DNA of 40,282 nucleotides from NCBI GenBank assembly GCA_913055815.1, contig CAJXKR010000002.1:1-40282 (forward strand), given 5' to 3'. The notes under the pieces were generated by a model that worked only from the letters and a program-made list of their open reading frames with translations, searched no databases and was not told where the DNA came from. A program made the position numbers and the translations under genes. This document shows, in pieces, positions 8,034 to 33,161 of the stretch (position 1 is the first letter of the stretch; every line of letters starts with the position of its first letter). Source of the DNA: an uncultured Desulfohalobiaceae bacterium (lineage in GTDB: Bacteria; Desulfobacterota; Desulfovibrionia; Desulfovibrionales; Desulfothermaceae).

Positions 8034-9392
8034 TTATCGATTGGAAAGCAGCCCGTGGTGGCTCATTTTGGTCCTTAGCTGCTTTCTGGAGATGCCCAGG
8101 ATCCTGGCAGCGGCACTTTGGTTCCATTCAGTTTGGTCCAGTGCCTTGCAAAGCACGTTCTTTTCCACTTCCAGAAGGTTAAGGTTGTTCGAGGTATGGT
8201 TTTCCTCCTTCAAATCCGTTAGCCTGGGAGGAATACAGGCAGTGGTGATATATTCCCCGGTACAGAGCACCACCGCCCGTTCGATTACATTCTCCAATTC
8301 CCGAACGTTACCTGGCCAGTCGTAGGCCAAAAATATTTCCACAACCTCGTTCGCCACCCCTTCAATGGACTTGTTGTGCTTGGCATTGTAGCGCTCCAGG
8401 AAGAAATCGGCCAAAAGGCTGATATCCTCCTTGTGTTCTCTTAGTGGCGGCAGGTGCATGCTGATCACGTTGAGCCTGTAGTGTAGGTCCTCACGCCAGT
8501 TGCCATCCCTGATCTCCTGTTCCAGATCCTTGTTGGTCGCTGCCAGTATCCTGGCATTGATACTGAATTGCTTGTTACCTCCCACCCTGTTGAACTTCTT
8601 CTCTTGCAGGAATCTGAGTAGCTTTTTTTGTACTCCCAGGGGCAATTCCCCTATCTCGTCCAGGAAAAGGGTCCCGCCTTCAGCCATTTCTATTTGTCCC
8701 TTTTTATCTGCGGTAGCCCCGGTAAAGGCTCCCCTGACATGGCCGAAAAGTTCGGATTCCAGGAGTGTTTCCGGCATGGCGGCACAATCTATGGTTACAA
8801 AGGGCTTGTCGTGATACCCACTGGAATAGTGTATTGCCCTGGCTACCAATTCCTTGCCAGTACCTGTTTCACCTGTGATCAAGATATTGGATTCGTACCC
8901 CGCAACCTTTTCCAGCAGGTCAAAAAGATCCTGCATGGGCTTGCTTTTGCCCACAATGCCACCCAGGCTGTACCTTTGCCGCAATTGTTTTTTCAATTCC
9001 ACGTTCTCTTGTTCCAGGTTTTTCCTTTCCAGGGCTTTTTGCACCAACACGGAGAGCTCCTCCAGATTGACCGGTTTTGTCAAGTAGTTGTATGCCCCCA
9101 GCTTCATTGCCTGGACTGCGTTGTTGATGCTTCCATAGGCGGTGATTATAATAACCTTGATTCCCGGCCTGCACTCCACTATGTCCTGCAAGATATCCAG
9201 GCCGCTTTTCCCTGGGAGTTTCAAATCTGTTACAACCAAATGCACATCCGACTTGCCCAACTCGTTCCAAGCACCTTCTGCAGAGTTGGCGGTCAGCACC
9301 TCGTAGCCCTCCTTTTTCAGGAAGGTGGAGAGCACTTTCAGGGTGTTTGCCTCGTCATCTATAATAAGTATCTTTTGGTTTTCTTCCCGCAT
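8034..9392 (-). CDS. Sigma54-dependent response regulator (REC-AAA+-Fis HTH)
   Basis: KILIIDDEANTLKVL; VVTDLKLPGKSGLDIL; GETGTGKELVARAIH; ESELFGHVRGAFTGA; C-terminal QSAAARILGISRKQLRTKM. Confidence 0.97.
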   Translation of the reverse strand: MREENQKILIIDDEANTLKVLSTFLKKEGYEVLTANSAEGAWNELGKSDVHLVVTDLKLPGKSGLDILQDIVECRPGIKVIIITAYGSINNAVQAMKLGAYNYLTKPVNLEELSVLVQKALERKNLEQENVELKKQLRQRYSLGGIVGKSKPMQDLFDLLEKVAGYESNILITGETGTGKELVARAIHYSSGYHDKPFVTIDCAAMPETLLESELFGHVRGAFTGATADKKGQIEMAEGGTLFLDEIGELPLGVQKKLLRFLQEKKFNRVGGNKQFSINARILAATNKDLEQEIRDGNWREDLHYRLNVISMHLPPLREHKEDISLLADFFLERYNAKHNKSIEGVANEVVEIFLAYDWPGNVRELENVIERAVVLCTGEYITTACIPPRLTDLKEENHTSNNLNLLEVEKNVLCKALDQTEWNQSAAARILGISRKQLRTKMSHHGLLSNR

Positions 9393-9403
9393 AAATAAAC
9401 CTG

Positions 9404-11014
9404 TTACTCGTTGTTAAGACCCTTAACCAAACTGGTATCGGTTTTTACTCCGGGTATGGTTATGGTAAAGCTGCTCCCATACCCTGGCGTGCTTTGTACA
9501 TCAATACTACCCTGGTGTTCTTTTACATTCTGTTCCACAATTGCCAATCCAAGCCCGGATCCTTTGACTTTTCCGGTATAAAATGGCTTGAACATATCCT
9601 CTTGTTTGTCCGCTGGAATGCCTTCACCCGTATCCTGGATACAAAGGTGAACGTTATTATTTTCCAACCAGTTGTATACACGAATCATCCCGCCAGGGTC
9701 AGTGGCCTGGACAGCATTGACCAGGATGTTCAGCACTGCCTGCTTGAGCTTGGAGCCATCGAAATAAAAAGGAGGGATGCCCGGATCCAGGTTTGTCTCA
9801 AGCTCAATATCCTTGTCCTTGATCTCGCTATCTACAAGTTGCAGGGTTTCCCGTATCATTTGATTGAAATCCGACAACGTTATTTCAGCAGGGCCAGGTT
9901 TGGAAAAATTCAGGAAATCCTGGACAATATCGCTGAGTCTTTTGCTTTCTTCCTGGATGATGGATAAAAATTCCTGTAATAGCTTGCCGGAAAAATTGTT
10001 CTTCAAATAGTCGGCAGATCCCTTGATTGCGTTCAAGGGATTCTTTATCTCGTGGGCAACCTGGGAGGCCATCTGTCCCAGCAGGGACAATCTCTCCATC
10101 CTGTTCTTTTCCAGGTTTGCCTGCTCCAGCTTGTTTATATTCAGCTTCAAGTTCTTTACCATTTGGTTAAAGACCAGATTGAGCTCTCCTATCTCGTCTC
10201 CAGCAGCATGCTTGAACACTGGACAATTCATACACTTGCTCTGCTGCTGGAAATCGTTCAAGCTGGACATCCAGCACTGTTCCATATCCCTGGCTTCACA
10301 GTCAGGATTTAGACACTTGAAATAATATGCGCAGTCCATACTACGTTCATTGGAAATTTCCAGATCCAGGTCTCCCAGTTGTACCCGGTGCATGTTTTCC
10401 TTCAGCTTGCTTATTCTCTTGGTCATCATCCAGGCAAGCAAATAAGAGGAGAACATGCCCACAAAAAACAGTGCTGCGGAGAGGTAGAAAAGGTTGTAGC
10501 GCAACTCTTTTAGATTGGCAGCCACCAATTGAGATTCCTTGTACTTGTCTATCCCCAACACCGCCCACCCCAAGAGTTCTCCCCCCACCCGGACAGGGGC
10601 AAAATAATCCTGTATTGAAAGTCCCCTTATTTTTTTGTTCTTTATAAAAAAATCTTTTTTCTCGGGCAGTTGTACTTTATTACCCAGATTGGATCTATCT
10701 GTATGCGCTACTATCCTGCCCCTGGAATCGATAATATATGCATATTTGGACATTATGCTCTTTTGGGTGGATTTAACCAAACTGTCCAGTTGCTGGTAAT
10801 TATTCAGCAATAGCGGATCAACCGATTCCAAACTCAATTTTTTTACCATGCTGCGGTTTTTTTTCCTTAAATTTTCACTGAGATTTTGTGCATGGTATTT
10901 GTCTATGATTATAAAGAAGGCAATCAAGATTATCAGGATATTCACCAAAATGGCCAAGGTAAACTTGTGTTTCAGTTTCAACCTGTTCAGCAGGCTTGTT
11001 ACTCCGGTAATCAT
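9404..11014 (-). CDS. Membrane sensor histidine kinase with Cys-rich insertion in HAMP region
   Basis: Two TM segments around a Cache/PAS-like sensor, HAMP, CAYYFKCLNPDCEARDMEQCW...CMNC insertion, QVAHEIKNPLNAIKGSADYL H-box, GKVKGSGLGLAIVEQ. Overlaps upstream gene by 4 nt. Confidence 0.95.
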   Translation of the reverse strand: MITGVTSLLNRLKLKHKFTLAILVNILIILIAFFIIIDKYHAQNLSENLRKKNRSMVKKLSLESVDPLLLNNYQQLDSLVKSTQKSIMSKYAYIIDSRGRIVAHTDRSNLGNKVQLPEKKDFFIKNKKIRGLSIQDYFAPVRVGGELLGWAVLGIDKYKESQLVAANLKELRYNLFYLSAALFFVGMFSSYLLAWMMTKRISKLKENMHRVQLGDLDLEISNERSMDCAYYFKCLNPDCEARDMEQCWMSSLNDFQQQSKCMNCPVFKHAAGDEIGELNLVFNQMVKNLKLNINKLEQANLEKNRMERLSLLGQMASQVAHEIKNPLNAIKGSADYLKNNFSGKLLQEFLSIIQEESKRLSDIVQDFLNFSKPGPAEITLSDFNQMIRETLQLVDSEIKDKDIELETNLDPGIPPFYFDGSKLKQAVLNILVNAVQATDPGGMIRVYNWLENNNVHLCIQDTGEGIPADKQEDMFKPFYTGKVKGSGLGLAIVEQNVKEHQGSIDVQSTPGYGSSFTITIPGVKTDTSLVKGLNNE

Positions 11015-12654
11015 TTGAAATCCACCAAATTCTCCAAGTGTAAGTATTCGTTGTATTCAGTCCTGTTGAACCCGCAGATCCTGGCCTGTTTGATTTTTTC
11101 CACAGGTTGCAGTTCTATTAGGGCTTGTTCCACTTTTTGGATCAATTCATTGGAGGCTCCGGGAGTGGATACAAGCGGCCAGTTGGGGAAATAGGATGTA
11201 TAATCAACTACCCGGATTTTTTGCATGTCCACTGTTTCCCGGACCATGCTTAACGCTGCTTCCCGGATAAATCCTGCATCCACCTTGCCGCGGTAAACAG
11301 CCAAAACAACCTGTTCGTGCCTTTTGCCCTCGCTAATTTCCGCCTGTTCCTGGATATCTATACCCTTTTCTTGTAAAAGTAGTTTTTGAAACCAATGCCC
11401 CCCAGCCGACTTTTGAGAAACAATCATGATCTTTTTACCCACCAGGTCTTGCAGTTCCCGGATATCGCTATCCTTTTTGGCAATAATTGCTCCCCTGAAT
11501 TCGTCCCTGGGTTTCCTCGGTTCCGGGCTTACGGTTTGAACCAAGGGACGCAGATCGATTTCCCTGTTCAAAAGCAAAAATACGTAAGGATTCTGGTATG
11601 CAAAGTCCACTTTGTTCTGCTTTACTATGCGGACAAACTCCTCAAAATCCTTGGGAATAACCAATCTGAATTCCCTGCCAGTCTTTTGGGTCAAGTACTC
11701 TGCCAGTGGTGAAAACATCCGATACATCTTTATCGAGGAATACAGGGGCAAGATCCCCAGCTTCAGGGCATCAGGGGGGTAGGTCAAGTAGTTGTCCCCG
11801 GTTGTATTGTTGAGTGCGATGCGCACTATATTGTATTCCCGGTCCTGGACAGGGGCAAAGGAATGCATGCGCTCCCTGGAAGGGCGGTATTCCAGGAGGG
11901 CCTTTTTAAGGTCAGATGCCAATTCCTTGTCCATGTCCCTGGAAACACACAAAAGGTATTGGGGCAGGGGCTTGGACTGCTTGATCACCCTGAGCCCTGC
12001 GGAACGATATTTATTGGCTGTTTTCAGGCTTATACCCCCCACATCGAAATCACCCACCAAAACACTCAGAGCTACCTGATCCTCTTTTTGCAAGTATTCC
12101 ACCCTGGAAAAATCCTTTAATCCAAGGCCGATTTCGTTGAACATTGCCAAGGGCATTAAAGAGCTGGAGGTGGAGTGCCTTTTCCCCAGGGCCAGGCTTT
12201 TACCCCGGAGTTGGACAATCTTTTCCAGGCCGGAATCCTTCCTGGCTACCAGAGCAGATTTGTTGTGCGGTTCTCTGTTTTTATGGACCTTGACCAGGGG
12301 GGTTACCTTGTATTTGTGCCTGGCCCGGCAATAGGCGGAAGGATCCAAATAGGCAATATCTGCCTCGCCTTTTTCGATCCCCCTCAAAGTCGCTTCGAGA
12401 TCTTCCTTTACCCTCATGTTTATCGATATATCAAGTCTTTTTTCCAAGTACTTCTTTACCGGGAAAAATTGTCGATACATCAGGCTGACTTTTCCCACCG
12501 GCTGCAGGAATAAATTCAGTTGCTCCGCACCCTGCTTTTCCTTGGCCAGGACTTTTTCACCTGTGCCAAAAAGCACAAGACTCAAAACGAGCATCAAACC
12601 TGAAAATACCAGGAAGAAACCTTGTTTGCTTTCATGGACTTGCTTTTTATTCAT
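11011..12654 (-). CDS. Tandem PhnD/TtrS-like periplasmic substrate-binding protein
   Basis: Two PhnD-type repeats (LNLFLQPVGKV...GEADIAYLDPSAYCRA; LKLGILPLYSSIKMYRMFSPLAEYL...KVDFAYQNPYVFLLL) after a signal peptide. ORF track starts at 12729; start at MNKKQVHESK (12654) fits the signal peptide better. Confidence 0.85.
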   Translation of the reverse strand: MNKKQVHESKQGFFLVFSGLMLVLSLVLFGTGEKVLAKEKQGAEQLNLFLQPVGKVSLMYRQFFPVKKYLEKRLDISINMRVKEDLEATLRGIEKGEADIAYLDPSAYCRARHKYKVTPLVKVHKNREPHNKSALVARKDSGLEKIVQLRGKSLALGKRHSTSSSLMPLAMFNEIGLGLKDFSRVEYLQKEDQVALSVLVGDFDVGGISLKTANKYRSAGLRVIKQSKPLPQYLLCVSRDMDKELASDLKKALLEYRPSRERMHSFAPVQDREYNIVRIALNNTTGDNYLTYPPDALKLGILPLYSSIKMYRMFSPLAEYLTQKTGREFRLVIPKDFEEFVRIVKQNKVDFAYQNPYVFLLLNREIDLRPLVQTVSPEPRKPRDEFRGAIIAKKDSDIRELQDLVGKKIMIVSQKSAGGHWFQKLLLQEKGIDIQEQAEISEGKRHEQVVLAVYRGKVDAGFIREAALSMVRETVDMQKIRVVDYTSYFPNWPLVSTPGASNELIQKVEQALIELQPVEKIKQARICGFNRTEYNEYLHLENLVDFK

Positions 12655-12708
12655 GGATACCTTTTTAAATTTTTCCATGCAGTAGTTTTGTTTCACTGCG
12701 TGAGAGAA

Positions 12709-12758
12709 TTGTCCCAGGCAGAACAACAAAACATAGCATTTTGTCCTCTTTGGGACAA
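12709..12758. promoter_or_regulatory. Two tandem 18-bp inverted repeats, candidate activator (UAS) sites
   Basis: TTGTCC-caggca-GAACAA (12709-12726) and TTGTCC-tctttg-GGACAA (12741-12758), 32 bp start to start. Confidence 0.5.
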
Positions 12759-28513: not shown

Positions 28514-30553
28514 TTATTGCATCTGTTTAACTATTTGTTCCAGATCCTGGGCCAATCTATTCAACTCGGAAATGGCCTGCGAAGATTGCTGCATAGTTTC
28601 CGCCGCCTCAGTAGCGGTTCTGTTCACTTCTTCAGTGGATTGATTGACTTGTTCACTTGCAGAGGATTGCTCTTCAGAGGAAGTGGCTATGTTTTGCACC
28701 TGCTCGGCATTTGACTCTGCAAGTCCCACAATCTCCTGCAAGTAATTGCTGGCCTTGCGTGACTGTTCGGACGTCTCTTCCACCGCTTTTTCAGTTTCTG
28801 TCACCTCTTCCACATTCTTTTCCGTACCCGAGGTTATGGAACTTATGGTATTGCCCACTTCCTTGGTTGCCTCCATGGTCTTTTCAGCCAGCTTGCGCAC
28901 TTCGTCCGCCACCACTGCGAATCCCTTTCCGGCTTCTCCGGCACGAGCGGCTTCGATTGCCGCGTTGAGTGCCAGCAGGTTAGTCTGGTCAGCAATGTCG
29001 TTTATCATGTCCATCACCTGGTTTATACCCTGCACATCCTTACTGAGCTGGTCCATGGAACTTTTCACGTTTTGTGTCCTCTGGTTGACACTGTGCATAT
29101 ATTCGGATACCTGGTCCACTATCTCCTTGCCTTCGTTGGCCTTTTTCTTGGTGCTTTCGGATTGTTCCGCCGCGCTGGAGGCATTTCTGGATATTTCCAG
29201 TATGGAGGAATTCATTTGTTCCATGGCCGTGGACACTTCGGAAGCCCGTTTTTGCTGTTCCTCCGCTCCGGTACTGGCTTCTTCTATCTGGGCGGAGAGT
29301 TCCTCTGTAGCACTGGCCAAACGCTCGGAAACATCGTTTGCCTGGCTGGAGAGCTCATACAGTTGGGAGTTCTGTTCCTGGATCTTTTTCTCTTGTTCCT
29401 TTATATCAGTAATATCGGCTATGGTAATAAACACGCTTGCCAGTTCCCCCTTGTCGTCGAACAAGGGTGCTGAATCCACTTGAATATGCTTGATATTGCC
29501 CTTTCTGGTCTCGAATTCGGCCTGTGTGCCCAAAATTGGCCGCCTTTCCTGAATTGTCTTTTCCGTTATAGTAGACCTGGTGGCATCGTTGTAAAAGGCA
29601 AGGCCCGCTTTTTCCCCGATCAACCTCTCCTTGTCGTCTTCTTCCACCAGCATAGCGGCTGCCTTGTTGAATTTTTTGATATAAGCGTTCTGATCCGACC
29701 AAACCAGGGGAGTAGCCATTTCCTCCAAAACTGATTCGTAGTAATTTATGCTCTCCTTTATCTTCTCCGTCATTATGTTGATCTTTTCAGCAAGCTTACC
29801 TATCTCGTCGCTACGATCAATCTGCAGTTTTGCAATATCCAGGTTTCCATCGGCAATACTCTCAGCATGTCTGTCCATGTCAACAATGGGTCTGGAGATA
29901 CGCTTGGCCAGGTAAAAAATTCCCACTGCAATCACGGCAGTTATACCTATCCCGATTAAGGTTATTTTCAAAAACATGGAGACGATGCTATTCCAGACAT
30001 CATTGACATATATTCCTGAAACCAAGACCCATCCCCAGGGTTCGAATTCCTTAACATAGGACAACTTGGGTTCTTCACGGTCCTCGTCGTCGTAATACTG
30101 CCAGTGGTATTCTACAAACCCTGCTCCTTTGTCCTTGGCTACCTCCACCATCTCTTTAATTAAATATTTGCCGTTAGGGTCCTGGAGACCGGAAATATCC
30201 TGGCCCTCTAATTGGGGCTGGTACGGGTGCATTAACATTCTCGGCTTTTTATCGATTATATAAAAATAATTCCGTTCTTTCGGTCCGTACCTGACACCTC
30301 TTATGGCCTCTTGAGCAGAGGCTTTGGCTTTGGCTTCGCTCATCTCACCGTCCTTGGACAATTCATAATAGTGGTTCAGGATAGCCATTTGAGCCTGGGT
30401 CAGATTTTTCACCTTGCTTTTTTTCTCTTGCCATAGTGAATCGTAAACATCCGGAAAATAGACTAAACTCAATACTATCGAAAAGACAGCTATTAGCAGG
30501 ATCATGGTGACAACCAATTGATTCTGAAAACTCTTGAACCGAAAGAGACGCAT
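28514..30553 (-). CDS. Methyl-accepting chemotaxis protein (sCache-HAMP-PAS-MCP signal)
   Basis: Two TM segments, Cache-type sensor ([22 protein letters not shown]), HAMP, PAS, and [41 protein letters not shown]. Confidence 0.96.
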
Positions 30554-30923: not shown

Positions 30924-33161
30924 TTATCCATAGATCCAGATTAGATAGCCTAGCATCATAAACAGCAAAACAGGTTGCAACGCTCGAATGCCCCATTCCA
31001 AAACCCGATATAATCTTTCATTTTTATAATAAAATGCGGTGCGTACTGCAATGGTAACCATGATCCCGATAAGAAGCCACATATAGACAAAGAAATACAC
31101 ATAGTCGATTGACACCAGATAACCAATATTGGGGAGTTGATCAGCCGTCATCAGGCTCAAGGAGACCGTGGTTAACAGCAGGATGACCCCCAAATTAAGC
31201 CTGGCGGCAAAAGGCGGACCCTCGGGAACAATAAAAGTCATGGCGTAGCCAAGAATAAAAATAAAGAACAAGGGGACCATGTTCTTGAATATGTAGCTGG
31301 CGGCATTGCGTTCGATCTTTGCCATGACATTGAACCGGGAATAAGTTATGCCCGTATCAGCATCGGAGTGGAACAGACGGGGATTCCCCAGTGTGGAGTC
31401 TGCCACTCCAATATCCGAATAGGCAAGGATATCTTGCAGTTGCCATTTGTTTTCTCCCTGAAAACCCGAGTGCTGCTGCAACCGGCTTAAGAGACTGCTT
31501 CCTTTGTGCCGTTGCATACCAATGTCGTCTGCCACAAAAATAAGCCGCTCCCTGTTGAGTTCTTTGTGCCGGAAGCGGATACGCAGGGTTTGCTCGTCAA
31601 AGGGGTAGTTGTGAAACTGAAATGGCTCCTGGAATTCAGACTTCACCCGGTAGGCACGGTAGTGCATATCGTCCACGGTGGTAGCCCTCATGGGATCAAC
31701 ATTTTCTCCCAACTGCACATCACTGTTAAAGAACTCGATCTTGGAGTAGTCCAGTGGATTCACATGCCGGAACCAAATGTAAAAGTCTGCGATAAAGCTC
31801 TCATTTTTTTGGTCAATGTGCACGATCTCATTTATATCCAGCCCGGTATAAACCACATCTGTTTTATAAAACAGATCATCCTGAAATGAAAGTAGATTGC
31901 CCTTCTGGATATGTTTGTCTACATCAAGGAGTTGGTCCGGATTGAGCACCGGGGTGAGTTGCACCGGGGCGGAAACGAGATTGTCCCTGACGTAGAGCCC
32001 AAAGGGTGAGGGATTGTCTGCATTGCCCTGTGCATCGAAATATATATGCCCGGTAACACCGGTATAGGACTTGTCTGGATTGGAATAACCTTGCAGGATA
32101 TCCCGCAGCTGCCTCCGCTGGCTGGAGAGTTCAGCATCCGGGTCTACACGCTCCAGGGCCTGCAGGACAAGTCCTGCGGCATCATAATTGCTTGCGCTCA
32201 AAGCATCTGGCTCTTGGTCATGTTCGTGTATGAAATCACGGCTGAATTGTTGGGCTTTCCTGTTGGCGATATCCCGGATAAAATAGGTAGTGGTGTAGAT
32301 CCCGTTGGTGTAGTCACCTGCATCTTCGGAGTCGCTTAGACCTGAAGCCACTTCCTTGGGAAATGTACCCAGCCCCAGGGAATCGCCCCCCAAAACAGGT
32401 ATATCCAGATTGGATTTTTGAAGACGTCGCACCAAATCCGCCGCCTCTTTATCCAGCAAGGCCACATACATCCCGCCGGAGTCTTTATCCTTTTGCAATT
32501 GCTCGATAATCCTGTCCAATTTTTGGGATACATTGTCCTCAAGAGAATTGATCCCCCAGTTATTCTTGATATTCAAGTCCAATTCCCGGGCAGCGGAACG
32601 AAAAGATTGCATCAATGTCCGGCCATAGGCATCATCTTCATATACGATGTTCACATCCGACTGATTCAAGACCCCGGACATATACAGAGCAGAGAGCTTA
32701 CCCTGCAACCTGTTGTCCGAGACTACCCGAAAATACCAGGGATTGCCTTCAGTAACATCAGGCGCGGCTGCACTCCCGGTTACTGCCGGAATCCCCCTGT
32801 CTTGATATATTTCACCTCCTTGCAGGGACAAGGAACTGTAATAGTGACCGATAACCGCCAGGCACCGGCTCTCATCAGCGATCCTCCTTGCCTGTTTGCG
32901 GGCCAACTTTTTGTCGTGCTTGTTGTCATAGACTTCAACAACAACTTCCCTACCCCGGATTCCTCCCTTGTCATTGATATTTTGCACCTGCAGGCGGACT
33001 CCGTTCACCATGGCATTACCGCTTTTTTTATCCTTGCCGCTCATGGGACCGATGACAGCAATACGCAGTGGCTCCTGGGCCTGGGCAACAGAAGAGATAC
33101 TGATGAGAATGGTTAGGCAGGCTATTGCCACTTTGATATAAAAGCTAAAGTAAGTATACAA
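30924..33161 (-). CDS. LIVBP-type periplasmic binding domain fused to pentameric ligand-gated ion channel (Cys-loop/Pro-loop family)
   Basis: Signal peptide; LRIAVIGPMSGKDKKSGNAMVNGVRLQVQNINDKGGIRGREV (type I SBP); ECD with FQEPFQFHNYPFDEQTLRIRF; four C-terminal TM helices including M2 AARLNLGVILLLTTVSLSLMTADQLPNIGYLVSIDYVYF. Confidence 0.88.
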   Translation of the reverse strand: MYTYFSFYIKVAIACLTILISISSVAQAQEPLRIAVIGPMSGKDKKSGNAMVNGVRLQVQNINDKGGIRGREVVVEVYDNKHDKKLARKQARRIADESRCLAVIGHYYSSLSLQGGEIYQDRGIPAVTGSAAAPDVTEGNPWYFRVVSDNRLQGKLSALYMSGVLNQSDVNIVYEDDAYGRTLMQSFRSAARELDLNIKNNWGINSLEDNVSQKLDRIIEQLQKDKDSGGMYVALLDKEAADLVRRLQKSNLDIPVLGGDSLGLGTFPKEVASGLSDSEDAGDYTNGIYTTTYFIRDIANRKAQQFSRDFIHEHDQEPDALSASNYDAAGLVLQALERVDPDAELSSQRRQLRDILQGYSNPDKSYTGVTGHIYFDAQGNADNPSPFGLYVRDNLVSAPVQLTPVLNPDQLLDVDKHIQKGNLLSFQDDLFYKTDVVYTGLDINEIVHIDQKNESFIADFYIWFRHVNPLDYSKIEFFNSDVQLGENVDPMRATTVDDMHYRAYRVKSEFQEPFQFHNYPFDEQTLRIRFRHKELNRERLIFVADDIGMQRHKGSSLLSRLQQHSGFQGENKWQLQDILAYSDIGVADSTLGNPRLFHSDADTGITYSRFNVMAKIERNAASYIFKNMVPLFFIFILGYAMTFIVPEGPPFAARLNLGVILLLTTVSLSLMTADQLPNIGYLVSIDYVYFFVYMWLLIGIMVTIAVRTAFYYKNERLYRVLEWGIRALQPVLLFMMLGYLIWIYG

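Follow-up and report, generated by a model that had tools for sequence, protein, structure and literature searches.

Architecture of the gene and its product

The window, that is, the whole stretch of 40,282 nucleotides that was analysed, carries on its minus strand an intact gene for a protein of 745 amino acids (30924-33161), read from a TTG start as listed within an open frame of 761 residues. The span 30924-31300, to which an earlier note on this DNA referred, encodes only the C-terminal four-helix domain of a gene reaching 33161; the fused type-I periplasmic binding protein (PBP-I) domain was not mentioned there. From the N-terminus, the protein consists of a signal peptide, the PBP-I domain, a Pro-loop receptor extracellular domain (ECD), and four membrane helices, all encoded on the minus strand.

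The putative signal peptide (residues about 1-29; 33075-33161) is a hydrophobic run ending in AQA. The PBP-I domain (residues about 30-400; 31962-33074) is LivJ/LivK-like. It matches the Pfam family PF13458 (LivJ-like; E 3.4e-39, residues 31-358) and solved branched-chain amino-acid binding proteins, with PDB 3hut at E 5.8e-28. It lies in the same open frame as the channel, and a PBP-I domain is likewise fused in the related loci L060, L064, and L079. The ECD (residues 401-622; 31296-31961) is a beta-sandwich according to a GLIC ECD profile match, the predicted fold, and Foldseek. It includes the Pro-loop HNYPFDEQ (residues 517-524; 31590-31613), which in the family alignment is the counterpart of the Cys-loop and corresponds to RRYPFDSQ in GLIC. 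No cysteines occur at this loop, and the disulfide closing the beta6-beta7 loop, a metazoan Cys-loop trait, is absent. The M1 helix with its conserved proline (YIFKNMVPLFF, residues 623-645; 31227-31295) was placed by the family alignment, the predicted fold, and segment identities, and the M2 pore helix, which spans -2' through P23' (residues 652-677; 31131-31208), by family alignments. M3 (residues 684-712; 31026-31112) and, after a short M3-M4 loop, M4 (residues 726-745; 30927-30986) follow from the predicted fold and segment comparison.

The assignment to the pentameric ligand-gated ion channels (pLGICs) draws on several comparisons. Pfam PF02932 alone scores 25.9 bits on the protein, below its cut-off of 28.1. 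A single-sequence search of the PDB retrieves, in the transmembrane domain (TMD), DeCLIC first (1.2e-6) and then GABA-A beta subunits. A profile of 12 family members retrieves GLIC and GLIC-GlyR and GLIC-GABA-A chimeras with both ECD and TMD aligned, at E-values down to 1e-20 (about 1e-17 for GLIC). An AlphaFold2 model of the monomer, built from a 12-sequence alignment (pLDDT 70.5), displays four helices together with the strands to be expected of such a channel. The best 50 Foldseek matches to it are all pLGICs (E about 1e-15 to 1e-17); GABA-A, DeCLIC, GluCl, and sTeLIC are matched at 1e-16 to 1e-18. The traits of the superfamily are present: a beta-sandwich ECD with a Pro-loop of the form aromatic-P-F-D-x-Q, and four transmembrane helices with the M1 proline and an M2 bearing a basic 0', L9', and P23'. 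On sequence and predicted fold, the product is a pLGIC fused to a PBP-I domain. The earlier assignment to a Cys-loop-type channel is thus borne out by the PDB profile and the fold, and the M2 motif recurs in three relatives.

Elsewhere in the window, on the minus strand at 8034-12729, adjacent genes encode a phosphonate-binding-type periplasmic protein (two matched stretches), a Cache sensor kinase, and a sigma-54 response regulator, a trio that likely constitutes a separate solute-sensing operon.

The pore helix and its close relatives

The segment AARLNLGVILLLTTVSLSLMTADQLPNIGYLVSIDYVYF is encoded on the minus strand, and its selectivity-filter residues A-2', A-1', and R0' (residues 652-654), defined by family alignments and channel comparison, fall at window positions 31208-31200. 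With R0', L9', and the LP pair at 22'/23' as anchors, M2 reads A-2', A-1', R0', L1', and N2', followed by L9', S13', and D20'. The earlier note had assigned A-2', A-1', R0', N2', L9', and S13' by counting from LP, and all six positions are correct, although the serine at 13' is replaced by F, L, or I in the relatives. E-7' and D20' are the closest acids on either side of the filter, with none between -6' and +19', so that a shift of one or two residues places no acid at -2' or -1'. A register shift that would bring an acid there was considered and ruled out, as no acid is near enough. Since R0' and L9' also align without gaps across the family, the M2 observation is confirmed. As had been claimed, the acidic ring of GLIC and the nicotinic receptors is absent, as is that of DeCLIC, both -2' and -1' being alanine.

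Relatives were collected by scanning 84,980 species genomes once with an ECD-anchored alignment, which yielded 79 loci; a single-sequence scan of genome contigs recovered no relatives. A full-length search in the relatives returned, besides the gene itself and among the matches listed, only matches to the PBP half, and the channel half was therefore searched alone. The nearest three proteins are those of a Desulfobacterales MAG (L060, 53% identity), a Desulfosarcina MAG (L061, 52%), and the Olavius symbiont Delta 3 (L079, 49%), and all share the architecture of the window protein. Their filters from -2' to 2' read VARMS, VARMN, and VARMN, respectively. Together with the window protein they form one clade (support 100/99) with the pattern [AV]-A-R-[LM]-[NS], in which A-R occupies -1'/0' in four of four members and -2' and -1' are never acidic. 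The proline found at -2' in GlyR is absent, with A in the window protein and V in the relatives. By alignment, the filter belongs to the A-R (anion) type and is kept across the clade of four.

Identity to the three relatives is highest in M2 (64-70%), followed by the ECD (52-56%), the PBP domain (46-49%), and M3/M4 (27-38%). M2 being the best-conserved segment, the pore appears to be under the strongest constraint. The glutamate at -7' is Q in L061 and L079, which leaves the clade's M1-M2 linker without a conserved acid (it is acid-free in two of the three close relatives), and D20' is likewise unconserved. The channel proteins of L061 and L079 have signal peptides ending in lipobox-like ISAC and MSAC, which suggests that their PBP domains are lipid-anchored.

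Filter residues and charge selection

In animal receptors, glutamate at -1' goes with cation channels and A-[RK] with anion channels (PMC8011927). The A-1'E substitution renders GlyR cation-selective and E-1'A renders 5-HT3A weakly anion-selective, whereas alpha7 with E-1'A alone remained cationic experimentally (PMC8011927). For bacteria, Tasneem et al. (2004) read A-[RK] members as anion type (PMC549065), while Jaiteh et al. call the pre-M2 motif in general insufficient as a predictor of selectivity in prokaryotes (PMC4795631).

In the bacterial comparison, as many as 26 of 37 channels, the window protein included (25 of the 36 others), have no acid at -2' or -1', so that such an absence alone is weak evidence, and many of them carry D or E at -4' or -5'. 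Narrowing the 37 to those with A or P at -1', a basic residue at 0', and no acidic residue over -5' to 2' leaves seven: the four proteins of the window clade, L063, L064, and L017 of Streptomyces. R0' occurs in both selectivity classes and is uninformative. The resemblance of M2 to GlyR and GABA-A, offered earlier as a sign of anion selectivity, was dropped as evidence. A cyanobacterial control with glutamate at -1' (L065, filter KER) retrieves GABA-A chains first in the PDB, just as L061 does, and TMD likeness to GABA-A/GlyR therefore says nothing of charge. The anion-channel proposal itself thus keeps the A-R-type filter, the conserved clade, and the missing acid ring, and loses the resemblance argument as well as part of its weight to the 26 acid-free channels. 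Also counting against it are the missing proline at -2' and the hydrophobic residues at 13' in the relatives. Literature searches found no selectivity measurement for any near relative. From the filter, preferential permeation of anions by the window channel is about an even prospect.

A different view of the same pore is that it favours cations or discriminates poorly between ions, the selection of charge falling to other rings or the ECD vestibule and not to -2'/-1'. No functionally studied bacterial pLGIC is known to be other than a cation channel (GLIC and ELIC, with DeCLIC so classed by sequence; PMC9897478), and the -4'/-5' acids in most acid-free-filter members outside the window family suggest that other solutions exist. 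The cationic alpha7 mutant and the E-7' and D20' of the window protein itself point in the same direction. These two residues, however, are not conserved in the clade, no position from -6' to +19' is acidic in the window protein, and an arginine ring lacking a partner acid should disfavour cations. A cation-conducting or poorly selective pore is accordingly put at roughly one chance in three.

Within the wider family the filter itself varies. Nostoc (L065) and Oscillatoriales (L067) have the KER filter, and their adjacent tandem paralogues carry KER and KDR; these cyanobacterial tandem genes for PBP-I-bearing pLGICs lie at L065:5039-7345 and L067:2901-4940. Their sister L064 (support 97/92) has VPR. 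Glutamate stands at 2' in L066 and L013; the latter is from the same order as the source bacterium and encodes a PBP-pLGIC with an SSRVE filter (L013:1462-3447, minus strand) that is only 27% identical. The alignments thus show that acid and no acid at -1' were switched within one receptor family, a change that presumably affects ion passage. The VPR and KER sisters may be regarded as a natural selectivity-switch experiment in one receptor family.

Other fusions were also encountered. L062 (2681-6316) and L063 (283-3903) encode a PBP-I domain, an ECD, four transmembrane helices, and a C-terminal SBP_bac_1 domain (E 1.8e-37 and 9.5e-31), and so are channels with binding proteins at both ends. 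In L066 (2-2608) and L068 (1-2655), a PBP-I domain joined to SBP_bac_5 is encoded directly upstream of the channel gene.

Sensor, ligand and relation to known receptors

The PBP-I and ECD module also occurs on another pore. In 66 of the 79 loci (L069-L078, L080-L091, L093-L100, L102-L130, and L132-L138; additionally L014, L015, and L016), the ECD is followed by an MscS channel, and PF00924 is found in 66 of 66. Profile-profile comparison aligns the whole ECD of the MscS-fusion and 4-TM groups (probability 100%, E 1.9e-48). The model of L074 displays a beta-sandwich, then helices, then the MscS domain, and Foldseek matches it to MscS and, lower down, to GLIC and an acetylcholine-binding protein. 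Three Azospirillum plasmid genes follow the same plan. Literature searches found no description of this fusion, which does not by itself establish that it is new. Because MscS assembles as a heptamer and a pLGIC ECD as a pentamer, the stoichiometry of these fusions is puzzling.

As to the ligand, the relatives' neighbourhoods and the LivK residues were considered. The channel gene is preceded on its own strand, in L061 and L079, by a GluR0-like K+ channel gene (L061:1542-2648 and L079:842-1927), whose SBP_bac_3 domain is split by an Ion_trans_2 pore bearing TVGYGD; this K+ channel gene directly adjoins the receptor gene in L061, and one small gene intervenes in L079. L060 retains a remnant of 43 residues with 77% identity (1804-1932). 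After the L079 channel gene come two genes of ornithine fermentation (L079:5602-8546), Ord (2,4-diaminopentanoate dehydrogenase, 477.9 bits against a cut-off of 400) and OrtB (802 bits against 550), and before that of L061 an ornithine-aminotransferase-like gene just under its cut-off (L061:199-1488). Of the Ser/Thr/acid residues that contact the ligand in LivK, the close relatives keep most, and the window protein has Ala in place of Thr. These neighbours and residues make a basic amino acid, ornithine or some other, the best guess. The genome that carries the window is 85% complete; neither Ord nor a GluR0-like gene was found in it, and its matches to OrtB were weak and all under the cut-off. 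Ornithine as the ligand of the window protein is hence a weak suggestion from relatives.

The explanation we favour is that the gene product is exported and forms, probably as a homopentamer (the model being monomeric), a Pro-loop receptor channel of the prokaryotic kind whose ECD is topped by a LivJ-like PBP-I domain. The ligand, an amino acid or some comparable small solute, would bind either to the PBP-I domain or at the interface between ECDs, binding would be relayed by the ECD to M2, and the pore, opening with its R0' ring and no acid ring, would prefer anions. It is grounded in the domain order, the four helices, the Pro-loop, the M2 register, and the clade-wide acid-free cytoplasmic filter, and this PBP-I-fused, ligand-gated, anion-preferring channel, taken as a whole, has in our judgement a chance of about one half. 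Going further, PBP-I plus ECD may be a portable sensor placed on three outputs, an anion-type pLGIC pore in the window clade, a cation-type one in the cyanobacterial KER/KDR proteins, and an MscS pore, with the window protein as an amino-acid-gated bacterial anion channel; this broader proposal is tentative, its likelihood falling somewhat short of even. If it held, one could speculate on a joint Cl-/K+ conductance with the GluR0-like partner of two close relatives, resembling inhibitory signalling or osmotic adjustment.

It is also conceivable, if improbable, that the receptor does not conduct in the cell and acts as a binding or signalling scaffold, e.g., coupled to chemotaxis. The gene that follows on the minus strand, 370 bp downstream (window 28514-30553), encodes a Cache-HAMP-PAS-MCP chemoreceptor, chemotactic roles were proposed by Tasneem et al. 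(PMC549065), and the PBP-I plus ECD module serves another output, MscS, in relatives. Against this, the conservation of M2 fits a pore under selection, and the 370-bp gap and the absence of this neighbour from the close relatives leave an operon with the MCP gene unsupported.

The fusion of PBP-I to pLGICs and the anion prediction are both known since Tasneem et al. (2004), who described such prokaryotic ART-LGICs in Magnetospirillum and Bradyrhizobium and predicted both selectivities, including A-[RK] members (PMC549065). Like the window protein, these have an N-terminal PBP-I domain, a pLGIC ECD, and four transmembrane helices, and the window protein joins them. The window clade occurs in other bacteria; several alphaproteobacterial PBP-I plus ECD proteins found here, including some from Magnetospirillum, end in MscS instead of four helices and are not necessarily the 2004 sequences. 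What is added is a conserved clade, a control that weakens the resemblance argument, a pair of sisters whose filters are opposite, and a pore swap involving MscS. Literature searches found no test of the 2004 prediction of anion-selective bacterial relatives of the GABA-A and glycine receptors, for which the four [AV]AR members are clean candidates. If their anion selectivity were true, charge reversal at the filter would not be an animal invention.

Among characterized bacterial channels, DeCLIC (PDB 6v4a) is likewise a multidomain pLGIC with an extra N-terminal domain, and is the best single-sequence TMD match, but that domain is not a PBP (PMC12664993) and two acid rings line its cytoplasmic mouth (PMC9897478). 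GLIC (PDB 3eam) shares the Pro-loop ECD and 4-TM fold and differs in being cation-selective, with E at -2', proton-gated, and free of a PBP. The vertebrate GlyR and GABA-A receptors share A-1', R0', L9', LP at 22'/23', G4' (GlyR), and a strong TMD likeness, whereas they have the Cys-loop disulfide, Pro at -2', T at 13', a long M3-M4 loop, and no PBP. The window protein is a bacterial relative of the neurotransmitter-gated channels of the brain, fused to an amino-acid-type binding protein, for which anion preference is a plausible prediction.
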